From contig NZ_FQXT01000004.1 of NCBI RefSeq assembly GCF_900130045.1, positions 248,001 through 312,000 on the forward strand: a DNA stretch of 64,000 nt, read 5' to 3'. Below, one piece after another: positions 11,944-25,902 of this stretch. The stretch is from Leeuwenhoekiella palythoae. Its GTDB lineage: Bacteria > Bacteroidota > Bacteroidia > Flavobacteriales > Flavobacteriaceae. The position numbers and the translations under genes are program-made. Within the stretch, counting starts at the first letter, position 1. Each line of letters opens with the position of its first letter. Under the pieces are notes generated by a model, which saw nothing but the letters and a program-made list of their open reading frames with translations, had not been told where the DNA came from and searched no databases.

Positions 11944-12018
11944 GGGCGCGTAGCTCAGTTGGTTCAGAGCACTTGGTTTACACCCAAGGGGTCAGGGGTT
12001 CGAATCCCTTCGCGCCCA
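11944..12018 (+). tRNA. tRNA-Val (anticodon TAC)
   Basis: A full cloverleaf can be drawn. The acceptor stem GGGCGCG pairs with CGCGCCC (12011-12017), discriminator A at 12018. The D-arm has GTAGCTCAGTTGGTT. The anticodon stem CTTGG / CCAAG encloses the loop TTTACAC with anticodon TAC, reading valine GUA codons. The T-arm contains GGTTCGAATCC. The next bases are CA, so the final CCA may be incomplete in the gene. A promoter precedes it and a terminator follows immediately, so it is a single-tRNA unit. Confidence 0.97.
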
Positions 12019-12020
12019 CA

Positions 12021-20643: not shown

Positions 20644-21537
20644 TTAGTTTGTGAGTTGCTGAAAAAGATGTTCTAGTGAAGTATTTTTTTTATTGAGCTG
20701 AAGGATTTTCAGCCCATTATCGTGCGCAAAATCAAAGAGTACGGCACGCTTGTCTTGCTGTGTATTGAAGGTGATCTCATAGACAAAGCCTACGGGATTG
20801 GCAACGTGCGTAACCCGATCAAGTTGTTGAAAAAATTCAAGCTCCACGCGATAATCAAATTCAACCACTATGATTTGATCACTTCCAGATTTCAGTTCGT
20901 CTAAACGCTTATCGGCAACAATTTTACCTTTATTAATGATGATCACACGATCGCAAACAGCTTCAACCTCTTGCATAATATGAGTAGAAAGTAAAACCGT
21001 TTTTGTCTTTCCGATACTTCTTATTAATGCGCGAATTTCTCGTAGTTGATTAGGATCTAAACCTGTCGTGGGCTCGTCAAGGATCAAAACTTCGGGATCG
21101 TGAATCAGTGCTGCGGCTAACCCTACGCGCTGCTTATAGCCTTTACTCAGTTGTTTTATTTTTTTTGAGATTTCAGGCTGCAATCCGGTTAAAGCTATGA
21201 CTTCATCTATTCGAGACGTAGATATCTTGTTCAATTCTGCATGCAGCTTTAAGTATTCTCTAATGTACATTTCAGGATAAAGCGGATTGTTCTCTGCTAA
21301 ATATCCCACACTTTTACGCACTGCTAAAGGTTGCTTTTCTGTTGAGTAGGTATTTACCGTAGCCTCGCCTGAGGTTGGTTTTAAATAGGTGGTTAAGATT
21401 TTCATCATAGTGCTTTTTCCGGCACCATTGGGTCCTAAAAAACCGGTGACTTCACCTTTGTTTACAGAGAACGATAAACCATCTAAGGCTTTCTGCGAAC
21501 CATAATTTTTGGTAATGGTTTCTACATTAATAGACAT
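20644..21537 (-). CDS. gldA: Gliding-motility ABC transporter ATP-binding subunit GldA
   Basis: ATP-hydrolysing subunit of the GldA-GldF-GldG ABC transporter first described in Flavobacterium johnsoniae gliding. The 297-residue protein has Walker A GPNGAGKST near 35-43, the signature LSKGYKQRVG near 128-137, Walker B VLILDEPTTGLDP, and the H-loop in LLSTHIMQEV. The N-terminus and overall length match GldA. The permease genes gldF and gldG are not in this window. A bacitracin- or antibiotic-type exporter ATPase is the main alternative, but the match to GldA and the presence of gldBC elsewhere in the window favour gliding. Confidence 0.85.
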   Translation of the reverse strand: MSINVETITKNYGSQKALDGLSFSVNKGEVTGFLGPNGAGKSTMMKILTTYLKPTSGEATVNTYSTEKQPLAVRKSVGYLAENNPLYPEMYIREYLKLHAELNKISTSRIDEVIALTGLQPEISKKIKQLSKGYKQRVGLAAALIHDPEVLILDEPTTGLDPNQLREIRALIRSIGKTKTVLLSTHIMQEVEAVCDRVIIINKGKIVADKRLDELKSGSDQIIVVEFDYRVELEFFQQLDRVTHVANPVGFVYEITFNTQQDKRAVLFDFAHDNGLKILQLNKKNTSLEHLFQQLTN

Positions 21538-21756
21538 ATTGCAAGAATTGGAGAAGGTTTAAAAGTTAAAAGTACACATTTAGCTTGCAGCCTTTTGTTT
21601 TTAAAACCTTAAAATTTATAAGATCAAGTTCGTGCGAGGGTTGGAGTTAAGGAGTTGTAATGTATTTTTTAATTAAATGACTAAATATGGGGTCTATATT
21701 TTGTCATGTTTAAATAAAATCAAGGATTGCTTTAATATGTGTAAAAATTAGCGGCT

Positions 21757-21790
21757 TTGAATCGAGTTCCTATTTATTTATTTACTTTAG
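21757..21790 (+). promoter_or_regulatory. Candidate promoter of the aromatic amino-acid operon
   Basis: TTG at 21757-21759, a 23-base spacer, and TACTTTAG at 21783-21790 (seven of eight matches to TAnnTTTG). Transcription would begin around 21797, about 14 bases before the leader ORF. Confidence 0.5.
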
Positions 21791-21810
21791 CAGCATAATT
21801 AAACAAGAGC

Positions 21811-21882
21811 ATGTCTAACGTACTTTACTTTTATAACCGCTATTACTTCTTTTTCTTCTGGAAAGAGATGGGACCGCTATAG
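21811..21882 (+). CDS. Aromatic-rich leader peptide of the Phe/Tyr operon
   Basis: A 23-codon ORF beginning ATG TCT AAC and ending CTA TAG. Codons 6-17 are almost entirely aromatic: Tyr-Phe-Tyr at 6-8, then Asn-Arg, then Tyr-Tyr and four Phe at 11-16, then Trp at 17. That is ten aromatic residues in a window of twelve. It sits 83 bases before prephenate dehydratase and directly before an attenuator hairpin. Its role is regulatory translation: the ribosome should stall in this run when charged Phe or Tyr tRNA is scarce. The peptide itself is not expected to have a function. Confidence 0.88.
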   Translation: MSNVLYFYNRYYFFFFWKEMGPL

Positions 21883-21943
21883 AGTAACGTATAGTATTAC
21901 AATATCATATAGGGTCCCGATTTAATAAATCGGGACTTTTTTT
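21870..21943 (+). promoter_or_regulatory. Transcription attenuator: competing antiterminator and terminator
   Basis: The terminator is a perfect 10-bp stem, 21914-21923 with 21927-21936, 3-base loop, then seven T (21937-21943). The antiterminator pairs GGGACC (21870-21875) with GGTCCC (21913-21918), and CTATA (21877-21881) with TATAG (21908-21912), 11 bp with one bulged G. It shares bases 21914-21918 with the terminator, so the two exclude each other. The antiterminator 5' arm is formed by the last codons of the leader ORF. A ribosome reaching the stop would cover it and permit termination, whereas one stalled on the Tyr/Phe codons would leave it free. Confidence 0.85.
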
Positions 21944-21965
21944 GTTATAAACCGAAGTTAACCAG

Positions 21966-22790
21966 TTGAAACATAAAGTAGCCATACAAGGAATTAAAGG
22001 GTCTTTTCATCATAAAGTCGCTCAGGATTTTTTTAGTGAAGACGTTGAGGTGATTGATTGCAACAGCTTTCAAGACCTGGTGAATCGTCTGATTAAAGGT
22101 GATGCGACAGATGCTGTTATGGCGATCGAGAACTCTATTGCAGGAAGCATTATTCCTAACTACGCTTTACTCGATCATCATAATTTGAATATCGAAGGAG
22201 AGCGCTACTTGGCTATAAGTCAGAATCTGATGGTGATGCCGGGCCAAAAGCTTGATGATATTCACGAGGTGTGGTCGCATCCTATGGCGCTTTTGCAGTG
22301 TAAAGAATTCTTTAAAGATAAAGAACACATCAGGTTGGTAGAAGATGACGATACCGCAGGTGCCGCGAAACGCATTGCAGATGGAAATCTGAAAGGGATT
22401 GGTGCTATTGCCGGAACAACCGCGGCTTCAATTTACGGTTTAGAGGTGATTGCGCACGATATTCAGACGATTAAAGATAATTCAACACGCTTTTTTATAC
22501 TGAATACTAACGGGCGTACAGAGGCAGATGTTCCCGATAAAGCTTCAGTTAAATTTTTGACCGATCACAAACGCGGAAGCCTTGCCGCGGTTTTGAATGT
22601 GATGAGTGATTGCAGACTTAATTTGACCAAGATTCAGTCGCTTCCAGTCATTGAAACGCCTTGGAAATATTCGTTCTTCGTTGATGTGACTTTTGAGGAT
22701 TATGCAGATTTTGAAAAGGCTAAAAAACTATTAGATATTATGGCTCAGGAATTTAAAATTCTGGGTGAATATAAAAACAGAAAATCATGA
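21966..22790 (+). CDS. pheA: Prephenate dehydratase
   Basis: Converts prephenate to phenylpyruvate for phenylalanine synthesis. The 274-residue, monofunctional protein (no chorismate mutase domain) starts with TTG. It has the N-terminal GIKGSFHHKVAQDFF motif, the catalytic Thr174-Arg175-Phe176 in DNSTRFF, and a C-terminal ACT domain from about 195. In that domain the E. coli regulatory motifs GALV and ESRP correspond to GSLA (204-207) and QSLP (224-227). First structural gene after the attenuator; its stop overlaps the aminotransferase start (ATGA). Confidence 0.95.
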   Translation: MKHKVAIQGIKGSFHHKVAQDFFSEDVEVIDCNSFQDLVNRLIKGDATDAVMAIENSIAGSIIPNYALLDHHNLNIEGERYLAISQNLMVMPGQKLDDIHEVWSHPMALLQCKEFFKDKEHIRLVEDDDTAGAAKRIADGNLKGIGAIAGTTAASIYGLEVIAHDIQTIKDNSTRFFILNTNGRTEADVPDKASVKFLTDHKRGSLAAVLNVMSDCRLNLTKIQSLPVIETPWKYSFFVDVTFEDYADFEKAKKLLDIMAQEFKILGEYKNRKS

Positions 22791-23935
22791 TTATAGCATC
22801 GGCTAACAGGCTAAACCAAACTTCTGAGTACTACTTTTCGCGTAAGCTAAAAGAAGTACGTGCTCTTGCAGCTGCCGGGAAACCTATAATCAATATGGGA
22901 GTTGGTAGTCCAGATTTACCGCCGCCGCCACACGTCATTAAAGCTTTGACAAGTTCGCTGGTCGATGCTCCTGCGCATCAATATCAGAGTTATAAGGGGC
23001 TTCCTCAGCTTACTGAGGCTATGGCAGATTTCTATCAGAAACGATATGCAGTAACGCTTAATCCTGAAGACGAAATTTTACCCTTGATGGGATCAAAAGA
23101 AGGTATTATGCATATCAGCATGGCTTTTTTAAATCCGGGAGATGAAGTTTTGATTCCCAATCCGGGATATCCAACCTATACTTCGGTAACGCGTTTGGTT
23201 GAAGCTGAGCCGATTTATTACAACTTGGATGCTTCAAACAATTGGATGCCTGATTATTCAGCTTTGGAAAAAAGAGATTTGAGTAAGGTGAAATTAATGT
23301 GGGTAAACTATCCGCATATGCCTACAGGAGCTAAAGCGACTACCGCCGACTTTGAGAAATTGGTAGCATTTGCAAAAGCAAATAAAATTCTCTTGGTAAA
23401 CGACAATCCATACAGCTTCATTCTTAATGAAAATCCGCAGAGTATTTTAAGCGTCGCGGGTGCAAAAGAAGTGGCTATTGAGTTGAACTCTTTGAGTAAG
23501 TCATTTAATATGAGCGGATGGCGCGTTGGGATGTTGCTCGGTGCAGTAGATTATGTAAGCACGGTGCTTACTGTAAAAAGTAATATGGATAGCGGAATGT
23601 TCTACGGAATTCAAAAAGGAGCCGCTGCCGTACTGACTGAAGGAGAAGCCTGGTTCAGCGGCTTGAACGAAATTTATGAAAAGCGCCGCGAGCAAGTTTG
23701 GAAGCTGGCTGATTTGCTAGGATGTACTTATGATAAAAATGCAGCCGGAATGTTTGTTTGGGCAAAACTGCCTGAAGGGACAGGAGATGCCGAAGCTTTT
23801 ATCGATGATATTTTGATCAATAAAAGCGTGTTTATCACGCCGGGAAGTATTTTTGGTTCGCAAGGCGCCGGGTACATTCGCTTTTCACTTTGTGTAACCG
23901 AAGATAAAATTAAAGAAGCCATTGGAAGATTTTAA
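22787..23935 (+). CDS. Class I/II PLP-dependent aminotransferase, probably aromatic
   Basis: A 382-residue fold-type I aminotransferase. It has the substrate-loop NPGYPTY near 125-131, a NDNPYS cofactor stretch near 205-210, the Schiff-base Lys238 in NSLSKSFNMSGWRVG, and a C-terminal GYIRFSLC with the carboxylate-binding Arg. Overlapping both the prephenate dehydratase and dehydrogenase genes, it most likely interconverts phenylpyruvate or hydroxyphenylpyruvate with Phe or Tyr. The family also includes aspartate and LL-DAP aminotransferases, so specificity is inferred from the operon. Confidence 0.88.
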   Translation: MIIASANRLNQTSEYYFSRKLKEVRALAAAGKPIINMGVGSPDLPPPPHVIKALTSSLVDAPAHQYQSYKGLPQLTEAMADFYQKRYAVTLNPEDEILPLMGSKEGIMHISMAFLNPGDEVLIPNPGYPTYTSVTRLVEAEPIYYNLDASNNWMPDYSALEKRDLSKVKLMWVNYPHMPTGAKATTADFEKLVAFAKANKILLVNDNPYSFILNENPQSILSVAGAKEVAIELNSLSKSFNMSGWRVGMLLGAVDYVSTVLTVKSNMDSGMFYGIQKGAAAVLTEGEAWFSGLNEIYEKRREQVWKLADLLGCTYDKNAAGMFVWAKLPEGTGDAEAFIDDILINKSVFITPGSIFGSQGAGYIRFSLCVTEDKIKEAIGRF

Positions 23936-24782
23936 AAACATATTCGTTCTGGGAATCGGACTCATAGGTGGTTCGTTGGCGCGTGATTTAAAACGTGTGT
24001 TGCCGGGGAGTACGATCTATGGTGTTGATAGCAACGATGATCATCTTGATGAAGCCGTTGGTCTGGGTGTGATTGATCATTCGGCGCGCTTTGAAGCGAT
24101 AAACCAAGCCGATTTAGTGATCTTGGCGATTCCGGTAGATCAAGCCAATTTATTTTTGCCACCGGTTTTAGACGCGATTGCACCTAATGCTTTGGTGATG
24201 GACGTAGGTTCAACTAAAGGCAGTGTGTGTGATGCGGTTCAAGATCATCCTAAACGCGATCAGTTTTTGGCAGCGCATCCGATTGCAGGAACCGAATTTT
24301 CAGGACCATCGGCAGCGATCGAAAATTTGTATAAAAACAAGACTATGATTCTATGCGAGGTTGAAAAAACCCGTGAAGATCTATTGGCAAAAGCTATGCA
24401 GATTTTTGAGGCATTGCCCATGCAAATTCGGTATATGAATCCGCATTCGCATGATAAGCATATTGCTTATGTGTCGCATTTATCGCACATCAGCAGCTTT
24501 ATGCTGGGGAAAACCGTAATCGAAAAGGAGAAAAACGAAAAAGATATTTTTGATATGGCAGGCAGTGGATTTGCTTCCACAGTACGCCTGGCAAAAAGTA
24601 ATCCGGCGACGTGGACGCCTATTTTTAAAGAAAATAAGGCTAACGTCCTGGAGAGCTTAACCGAATACATCAATAATTTAACGCATTTCAAAAATGTTCT
24701 AGAAGCCGAAAATTATGAAGAGGTTTTTAATGAAATGCACAATACAAACCACATAAAATCAATACTTAAAGGATTATCGTAA
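23922..24782 (+). CDS. tyrA: Prephenate dehydrogenase
   Basis: NAD(P)-dependent oxidative decarboxylation of prephenate to 4-hydroxyphenylpyruvate on the tyrosine branch. The 286-residue protein has a Rossmann motif GIGLIGGSLA at 11-20, the HPIAGTEFSG stretch near 120 with a conserved substrate-site His, and the SHLSHISSFML helix that contributes to the dimer. No ACT domain is present. A TTG start at 23922 overlaps the aminotransferase gene by 14 bases, indicating translational coupling. It is monofunctional, unlike E. coli TyrA, because the mutase is fused to the next gene. Confidence 0.94.
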   Translation: MEDFKNIFVLGIGLIGGSLARDLKRVLPGSTIYGVDSNDDHLDEAVGLGVIDHSARFEAINQADLVILAIPVDQANLFLPPVLDAIAPNALVMDVGSTKGSVCDAVQDHPKRDQFLAAHPIAGTEFSGPSAAIENLYKNKTMILCEVEKTREDLLAKAMQIFEALPMQIRYMNPHSHDKHIAYVSHLSHISSFMLGKTVIEKEKNEKDIFDMAGSGFASTVRLAKSNPATWTPIFKENKANVLESLTEYINNLTHFKNVLEAENYEEVFNEMHNTNHIKSILKGLS

Positions 24783-24810
24783 TCAGCTAAAAGCTGTAAA
24801 TTTGTTGAAT

Positions 24811-25902
24811 ATGGAAAATAAGAAAGAACTTAGAAACTGGTTAGACGCTTTCAATCTGGATCATCCGCTTGTAATCGCAGGTCCTTGTAGCGCAGAAACT
24901 GAAGAGCAAGTATTAAAAATTGCTCACGAGCTAAAAGACACAGATGCTACTGTTTTTAGAGCAGGAATCTGGAAACCACGTACCCGCCCGGGAATGTTTG
25001 AAGGTGTGGGAGCGCTAGGTTTGAAATGGCTTCAGAAAGCTAAAGAGGAAACCGGGATGCTGACGACTACCGAAGTTGCAAATCCTAATCACGTAGAGCT
25101 TGCGTTAAAGCACGATGTAGATATTCTATGGATTGGTGCGCGTACCACCGTTTCTCCTTTCAATATTCAAGAAATTGCTGAAGCGCTTAAAGGAACAGAT
25201 AAAACAGTTCTTATCAAAAACCCCGTGAATCCTGATCTGGCTTTATGGTTAGGGGCTGTGGAGCGTTTTTATACGCAGGATGTTAAAAATCTTGGTGTGA
25301 TTCACAGAGGTTTTTCAACCTATGAGAAAACCCGTTACCGAAATAATCCAGAATGGCAAGTTGCTGTAGATTTACAAAACCAGTTTCCGGACCTTCCATT
25401 AATTTTAGATCCATCACATATCGCCGGGCGTCGTGATATTATTTTTGATCTATGCCAGACTGGTCTTGATCTTAATTATGACGGAATTATGGTGGAGACC
25501 CACTACGATCCAGACAATGCGTGGAGTGATGCTAAACAGCAAATCACACCGGCTACTTTGGTGCAGATTATGAAAGATCTAAAAATTCGTAAAGAAGAAG
25601 GTACCGCTGCAGAATTCAATAATAAACTGAATACGCTGCGTACACAGATCGATGTAGTTGATCATCAATTGATAGAAAGCTTAGGAAAGCGTATGAAGAT
25701 CGCTGATGCTATAGGTGAATTAAAAACGGAAAATAACGTTGCGATTCTTCAGTCTAAACGTTGGAACGAGATTTTAGGCGCAATGATCTTAGAAGGTGAA
25801 AAGCACAATTTGAGCGAAGAATTTATTCTACGTGTTTTTAAAGCGATTCACCAAGAGTCTATTAATCACCAGAAGAAAATTTCTAGAATGGAAGAAGCTT
25901 AG
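24811..25902 (+). CDS. Bifunctional DAHP synthase / chorismate mutase
   Basis: Catalyses both the entry step of the shikimate pathway (PEP plus erythrose 4-phosphate) and, through a C-terminal domain, chorismate to prephenate. From the ATG at 24811 it has 363 residues. The N-terminal type I-beta synthase carries VIAGPCSAE, FRAGIWKPRTRPG, WIGARTT and DPSHIAGRRD. The mutase (about 270-355) shows RTQIDVVDHQLIESLGKRM. The same synthase-then-mutase order is known from Porphyromonas, where the mutase domain mediates prephenate control. An in-frame TTG at 24802 is a less likely start. Confidence 0.94.
   Translation: MENKKELRNWLDAFNLDHPLVIAGPCSAETEEQVLKIAHELKDTDATVFRAGIWKPRTRPGMFEGVGALGLKWLQKAKEETGMLTTTEVANPNHVELALKHDVDILWIGARTTVSPFNIQEIAEALKGTDKTVLIKNPVNPDLALWLGAVERFYTQDVKNLGVIHRGFSTYEKTRYRNNPEWQVAVDLQNQFPDLPLILDPSHIAGRRDIIFDLCQTGLDLNYDGIMVETHYDPDNAWSDAKQQITPATLVQIMKDLKIRKEEGTAAEFNNKLNTLRTQIDVVDHQLIESLGKRMKIADAIGELKTENNVAILQSKRWNEILGAMILEGEKHNLSEEFILRVFKAIHQESINHQKKISRMEEA

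Follow-up and report, generated by a model that had tools for sequence, protein, structure and literature searches.

A predicted ribosome-mediated attenuator with mixed aromatic codons ahead of the pheA operon of Leeuwenhoekiella palythoae and other Bacteroidota

The pheA leader region and its predicted folds

We analysed a stretch of 64,000 nucleotides of the Leeuwenhoekiella palythoae genome (hereafter the window, to which all coordinates refer), in which a short open reading frame crowded with aromatic codons, followed by an intrinsic terminator, precedes four genes of aromatic amino acid biosynthesis. The features of the locus are as follows.

21783..21790, + strand: candidate Bacteroidota -7 box, TACTTTAG, matching TAnnTTTG at 5 of its 6 fixed letters
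21811..21882, + strand: leader ORF of 23 codons plus stop, encoding MSNVLYFYNRYYFFFFWKEMGPL
21818..21895, + strand: predicted region 1:2 protector structure, in which the aromatic codons pair with the purine-rich end of the ORF and its flank; the inner hairpin spans 21848-21868
21870..21881, + strand: arm 2, the predicted 5' arm of the antiterminator, inside the final ORF codons (from folding)
21908..21918, + strand: segment of arm 3 predicted to pair with arm 2 (from folding and from the 2:3 covariation of group A)
21911..21943, + strand: intrinsic terminator, with arm 3 at 21911-21923, a loop of 3, arm 4 at 21927-21939 and then a T run
21966..22790, + strand: pheA, prephenate dehydratase, TTG start as listed; best model below the curated cut-off
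22787..23935, + strand: PLP aminotransferase; best models below the cut-offs
23922..24782, + strand: tyrA, prephenate dehydrogenase; over the NCBIfam cut-off
24802..25902, + strand: DAHP synthase with a C-terminal chorismate mutase domain; best models below the cut-offs

The leader ORF, which had no NCBIfam match, contains ten Phe, Tyr or Trp codons (codons 6, 7, 8 and 11-17), and is the same 23-codon frame, with the same ten codons among codons 6-17, that an initial annotation of this DNA had pointed out. The four downstream genes, assigned there as prephenate dehydratase, aminotransferase, prephenate dehydrogenase and DAHP synthase/chorismate mutase, match the corresponding family models with tiny E-values, with the curated NCBIfam cut-off passed by prephenate dehydrogenase only. 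The closest named match to the PheA of the window is that of Leeuwenhoekiella blandensis MED217, at 97% identity.

A sigma-70-type promoter scan found no site. The candidate -7 box, scored against the Bacteroidota consensus TAnnTTTG as given in passages of PMC9723704, would leave a short 5' UTR ahead of the leader ORF. Within the 60 nt before the leader ATG, the best such box scores 5-6 of 6 in 135/138 of the loci compared below, versus 794/1380 letter shuffles, and a lone match is thus weak evidence. The nearest upstream ORF (20644-21537) lies on the opposite strand and is divergent, and therefore the terminator at 21911-21943 serves no upstream gene of the + strand.

A terminator scan of 21540-22300 returned a single site, on the + strand, with 13 pairs and a T run, where 0.5 sites were expected by shuffling; this confirms the annotated hairpin at 21914-21936 and lengthens its stem to 21911-21939. 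When the RNA from the leader ATG through arm 3 was folded, 21870-21881 paired with 21908-21918, coordinates identical to those first proposed for an antiterminator, and this helix and the terminator (21911-21939) are mutually exclusive. RNA ending before arm 3 is predicted to fold instead as a 1:2 structure (-17.2 kcal/mol), in whose minimum-energy form just two bases of 21870-21875 in arm 2 are paired, the pairing being carried by the flank from 21876; once arm 4 is included, the predicted fold is the terminator. The RNA left free by a ribosome placed at Trp17 is predicted to adopt the antiterminator (-15.4), and that left free by one at the leader stop to adopt the terminator (-16.8). Both hairpins of the initial annotation were thus borne out, although it had missed the region 1:2 hairpin predicted by folding. 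An early idea of our own, of an element lacking a 1:2 hairpin, was rejected, as the folds of relatives show one.

Distribution across the phylum and comparison with chance

PheA was found in all 13 genus genomes, in 228/249 sampled family genomes, in 87/146 order genomes and in 215/247 phylum genomes. Our core set of 121 loci (L001-L121) comprises the 13 genus genomes and 108 others, and covers 110 of the 228 family PheA matches with a bias toward better PheA scores. An aromatic leader precedes pheA in 121/121 of these loci, at most 400 nt away in 120/121; within that distance the best ATG ORF has 8-10 aromatics per 12 codons, again in 120/121, and the exception (L082) has a leader with 9 aromatics at -457. 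Such an ORF arose in 1/2420 shuffles (dinucleotide, with letter-shuffling as fallback) and in 0/121 reverse complements. Close relatives were thus checked for an absence of aromatic ORFs and hairpins, and the element proved to be conserved across the core set. Six further family loci (L131, L132, L138-L141) have leaders with 7 to 9 aromatics.

Across all 161 loci from genus to phylum (L001-L161), at least 7 aromatics were found in 148. The 13 loci without an ATG ORF of at least 7 aromatics in 450 nt (L082, L122, L124, L150, L127, L133-L137 and L142-L144) include two short leaders with 5 aromatics (L122, L124) and one with 10 that starts from GTG (L150). No convincing leader was seen in family f4 (L130, L133-L135), in the 0.6-Mb genomes of f15 (L136, L137), in L127 or in L142-L144. 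The last three belong to one genus outside the order; the 450 nt before their pheA, which have no aromatic leader, resemble the end of aroA, and control may sit further up. The four-gene order is complete in 104/161 loci, the extracted sequence ends after tyrA in 40 more, and 17 are otherwise arranged.

We additionally identified leader-like elements in other orders and beyond the class. Among named or MAG loci, partly of the same species, a leader was present in 35/36, the exception being a Ktedonobacteraceae MAG. We inspected 18 loci outside the class of the window (L161, L271-L287). An aromatic leader (8-10) is present in each of the four whose PheA match reaches E<1e-60 (L161, L271-L273), and inspection by eye shows a hairpin with a T run behind it, arm 2 not being significant in L161 (p 0.31). 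In the 14 whose PheA is more divergent, no stretch of 12 codons exceeds 5 aromatics. The element therefore tracks the operon type of pheA. It is not confined to flavobacteria, the group in which it was first pointed out.

A terminator finder placed a hairpin, in some cases a weak one, before a T run in 146/148 leader loci; the other two (L159, L160) have visible GC-rich repeats before a T run. The duplex of arm 2 with arm 3 was better than shuffles at p<=0.05 in 138/146 loci with leader and terminator, and the remaining eight were dropped (L017, L032, L069, L100, L107, L129, L130 and L161), of which L130 probably has no true leader. Later counts use the 138 loci retained in this way, a selection that favours 2:3 pairing. 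A genome search with RNA model R1 gave one match each in 20/31 genomes and none in 11/31; all 18 matches in genomes with a placed pheA lie directly before that gene, the other two being in G014 and G611.

These distributions bear on the simplest alternative, that a plain constitutive terminator, or the terminator of another transcript, lies beside a chance ORF. The hairpin is strong in isolation, as this would have it; however, the upstream ORF is divergent, the ORF, arm 2 and their spacing are conserved jointly, and the shuffles yield such an ORF so rarely that we consider this explanation exceedingly improbable. Nothing was found in favour of a different cis sensor, namely a T-box, an amino-acid riboswitch or an RNA-binding protein, and we give it equally little credence, since conservation falls on codons and on ribosome spacing, and an Rfam scan of the window at gathering score returned a tRNA as its sole match, with no leader, T-box or riboswitch family. 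The tRNA-Val (tac) gene, at 11944-12019, is the sole tRNA within the window.

Covarying helices, ribosome spacing and the proposed mechanism

The alternative helices are predicted folds, for which we sought comparative support in three alignments drawn from the 138 loci: A1 (33/41 of group A), A2 (50/56, leaving out L004, L005, L008, L025, L098 and L113) and A3 (42/44, leaving out L109 and L121). In group A (n=50), 96.6% of cells in helix 2:3 were paired with 13 cells changed on both sides, and 98.9% of cells in helix 3:4 were paired with 8 such cells; 0/500 shuffles were as high on either measure for either helix. Of the other measures, 7/500 shuffles reached the 2:3 value for pairs with changes on both sides, 7/500 that for further pair types, and 59/500 the 3:4 value for further pair types. 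Sliding the helices by 1-3 columns lowered pairing to 18.5-58.3%. Helix 2:3 of group B (n=42) is nearly invariant (99.6% paired) and showed no covariation. Antiterminator and terminator thus covary beyond shuffles in one group. In 132/138 loci, arm 2 binds the arm 3 of the same element better than it binds 15 others on average. The 2:3 pairing from an early arm alignment was set aside, since taking best-duplex partners inflates pairing.

For the 1:2 hairpin, 93.7% of cells were paired in 33 ungapped group A sequences versus 47-60% when slid, and 92.3% versus 35-59% in group B, slid controls that favour a structure taken from one member. Against shuffles, the paired percentage in group A was reached by 4/500 and the covariation score by 3/500; in group B 126/500 reached the paired percentage, with no clear excess. 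A locus's own region 1 fits its own region 2 better in energy than the mean of 20 others in 117/138. Synonymous-codon permutation of 46 loci (every third of the 138) offers mild support, the native sequence exceeding the mean of the permutations in pairing at 34 loci and lying below it in energy at 37. Differing sequences keep the fold, as in AACGGUUUU:GGGACUGUU (L017), AGCAAU:AUUGUGCU (L138) and CAUAUUA:UAAUAUG (L145), all from folds. The case for this predicted hairpin rests on conserved pairing and own-versus-swapped energies, its covariation being weak.

An Asn codon lies within the aromatic run of 118/138 leaders, and of 110/121 family leaders. Of these 118 codons, 100 have one or more bases paired with RNA beyond the last aromatic codon and 18 have none; all three bases are paired in this way in 62, of which 56 have AAC with GUU. 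The conservation of this non-aromatic codon is thus accounted for by the predicted use of its bases in 1:2 pairing. Asn invariance within A1 was discounted as circular, the pattern by which that alignment was picked having demanded Asn at one column.

These data speak to a further alternative, modelled on TnaC, in which a free amino acid causes the nascent peptide to block the ribosome exit tunnel. An aromatic peptide acting in this manner would fit the strong conservation of the peptide, including the Asn in its run. However, predicted RNA pairing accounts for the Asn codon, the aromatic residues exchange between relatives, and the logic of the locus suits starvation control of a biosynthetic operon; we regard peptide arrest as very unlikely.

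The spacing of the element was examined across the 138 loci. The last aromatic codon, measured at its first base, lies a median of 13 nt before arm 2 (sd 1.65), with 10-15 nt in 132/138, whereas the stop codon wanders from 6 to 42 nt past the same base (sd 6.5), and looser distances also separate the ATG from arm 2 (sd 4.7) and arm 2 from the stop (sd 6.0). The layout therefore tracks the control codons and not the stop, and a tight spacing of this kind is what a ribosome waiting at control codons would require. We modelled the ribosome as a mask that, counted from the first base of the A-site codon, extends 15 nt in the upstream and 11 nt in the downstream direction; this is textbook E. coli ribosome geometry and was chosen after viewing the window. 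With the A site on the last aromatic codon, the mean probability of 2:3 was 0.81; a ribosome one codon further along gave 0.42, one two codons further along 0.03, and one at the stop 0.03. In the mask model, then, the spacing lets a ribosome at the control codons free region 2 and one at the ORF end cover it, in agreement with the control region as defined in PMC1183508. In two loci (L019, L108) the stop stands 3 nt after the last aromatic codon, ahead of arm 2; together with L065, L071, L090 and L138, in which it falls within 3-9 nt, these are natural variants in leader termination.

In our judgement, the pheA-aminotransferase-tyrA-DAHP synthase operon is highly likely to be governed by a ribosome-mediated transcription attenuator of the classical four-region type. 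The mixed Phe/Tyr leader attenuation originally suggested for this DNA, with Trp as a further candidate signal, remains the best reading of a conserved element with group A covariation and a spacing that fits a ribosome. We infer the transcription start, translation, stalling, termination in vivo and the acting amino acids as follows. Transcription would begin just upstream, and the leader would be translated immediately. When charged tRNA-Phe, tRNA-Tyr or (where its codons are present) tRNA-Trp is scarce, the ribosome would wait at an aromatic codon and cover region 1, leaving arm 2 free to pair with arm 3, so that the terminator is blocked and the operon transcribed. When aromatics are plentiful, a ribosome at the last codons or the stop would cover arm 2, allowing 3:4 to form and transcription to end. 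If translation fails, 1:2 would form first and termination is expected; at equilibrium, folds without a ribosome still give 2:3 a mean probability of 0.60, and the outcome of this state therefore depends on kinetics.

Aromatic codons as a class, related leaders and known systems

The 138 leaders contain 786 Phe, 488 Tyr and 91 Trp residues, with both Phe and Tyr present in every leader and Trp in 90. The last aromatic codon is Phe in 114, Trp in 12 and Tyr in 12. We compared nearest relatives as 60 disjoint pairs from the 121 loci, of which 30 were usable (equal length, at least half identical), all being leaders chosen as aromatic-rich overall. Within the aromatic run 13/22 replacements were aromatic-to-aromatic, mostly F with Y, and 9/22 were to a non-aromatic residue, with seven further aromatic-to-other changes located after the run; in the whole leader the figure was 13/29 of the replacements involving an aromatic. 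As 13% of single-base missense changes in these codons are expected to stay aromatic (binomial p 4e-7 for 13/22), we read selection as acting on 'aromatic' as a class and not on one residue. A higher count, 26/27 aromatic replacements in the ungapped alignment A1, was discarded as circular, because A1 had been picked by its aromatic/Asn column pattern; using the nearest-pair counts in its place makes the any-aromatic reading slightly less likely.

Whether Tyr and Trp codons are mere passengers, with the near-terminal Phe codons alone exerting control, can be weighed on the same data. The predominance of Phe as the last aromatic codon fits such a Phe-only attenuator, as does the mask model insofar as control is sharpest by the codons nearest arm 2. 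Yet in that model arm 2 is also freed by stalling at earlier positions of the run, wherever these lie, Tyr accompanies Phe in all leaders and Trp in 90, 13/22 in-run replacements swap aromatics, and the operon makes Phe, Tyr and their common precursor; we therefore think a Phe-only device unlikely. More probably one leader reads Phe, Tyr and often Trp. The Trp codons make sense because the DAHP synthase of the operon also feeds Trp, and the leader may respond to Trp as well.

We also found candidate leaders before other amino-acid operons. At hisG loci including that of the same genome (L162-L173), at least 4 His per 10 codons occur in 10/12, the leader of the window's own genome being MRKTALHHHHFYSRTQAR, in ORFs whose starts precede the HisG domain by about 285-381 nt. 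As a control, nine other residues were counted, and the best of them reaches 4 in 4/12 of these loci, so that the His count alone is weak and the case rests on a His block at a similar place. Three adjacent Trp codons occur in 8/9 trp loci (L215-L223; own leader MKNKTVNTWWWISQQ), before a trpE-sized ORF in 7/9 and before a trpD-sized ORF in L223. At homoserine dehydrogenase loci (L224-L234), at least 8/12 Thr/Ile codons were found in 8/11 (own leader MKAINTITTSTIATTGLAIAFIIITPLGYSFNI), preceding an aspartokinase-homoserine dehydrogenase-sized gene; ilvD loci gave a few suggestive cases only. Short ORFs with matching codons ahead of his, trp and thr operons in the same genomes would be a suite of leaders. 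We lean slightly toward the broadest reading, in which the pheA leader is an ancient, phylum-wide any-aromatic OR gate of Bacteroidota that answers scarcity of any one of charged tRNA-Phe, -Tyr or -Trp by acting on a joint operon for Phe, Tyr and their precursor, and is one of this suite of his, trp and thr leaders.

Ribosome-mediated attenuation is textbook knowledge for Proteobacteria. A study by Lopatovskaya et al. in 2010 reportedly treats attenuation across bacteria and may cover Bacteroidetes. Our literature search, with most subscription papers outside its coverage, found no mixed aromatic attenuator described for Bacteroidota. For Flavobacterium psychrophilum and other Flavobacteriaceae, structured 5' elements without Rfam hits have been reported to precede pheA and hisG, with 'strong clues' for leader-peptide attenuation ahead of amino-acid operons (PMC9723704, 2021). 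The F. psychrophilum pheA element is very probably the same as ours, given the same gene, the same family, no Rfam hit and suspected attenuation; the passages of that paper that concern it describe neither its anatomy, codons and covariation nor any occurrence outside the family. The initial view that the element was undescribed in Bacteroidota thus stands, within that search, for mixed aromatic attenuation, but not for a pheA 5' element as such. Leader-like sORFs are mentioned for Bacteroides thetaiotaomicron in PMC7366714, attenuation of this kind is predicted for Actinobacteria in PMC1262725, and statements on Bacteroidota in the papers covered are brief predictions only. The element is well supported, classical in its proposed mechanism and partly anticipated in print; what is new is its anatomy, the probable mixed aromatic sensing and the phylum-wide spread.

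If the element works as proposed, the supply of aromatic amino acids in a large phylum, with members in the sea, in soil and in association with hosts, would be set by ribosome stalling on a mixed leader. Control needs the first ribosome to be abreast of RNA polymerase, and the element is thus a natural assay of transcription-translation coupling in Bacteroidota. The OR gate and the suite to which it would belong, if real, would imply close coupling even though translation in this phylum starts without Shine-Dalgarno pairing, such sequences being absent from Bacteroidota according to PMC6847099. The element additionally provides an annotation model for a regulator missed here by Rfam and NCBIfam families.

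Like the enterobacterial pheL/pheA, trpL and hisL systems, the theory of which is treated in PMC1183508, the element has leader control codons before region 2, predicted regions 1-4, and a biosynthetic operon downstream. Unlike them, it mixes Phe, Tyr and often Trp codons, partly interchangeable, in one run, has no Rfam match, belongs to a phylum without Shine-Dalgarno initiation, and lies before an operon that joins pheA, tyrA and DAHP synthase. Multivalent leaders are known from enterobacteria, in the thr (Thr/Ile) and ilvGMEDA (Ile/Val/Leu) operons, and these likewise sense several end products of a branched pathway by one leader; in contrast to them, the Bacteroidota leader has three aromatics that drift as one class.
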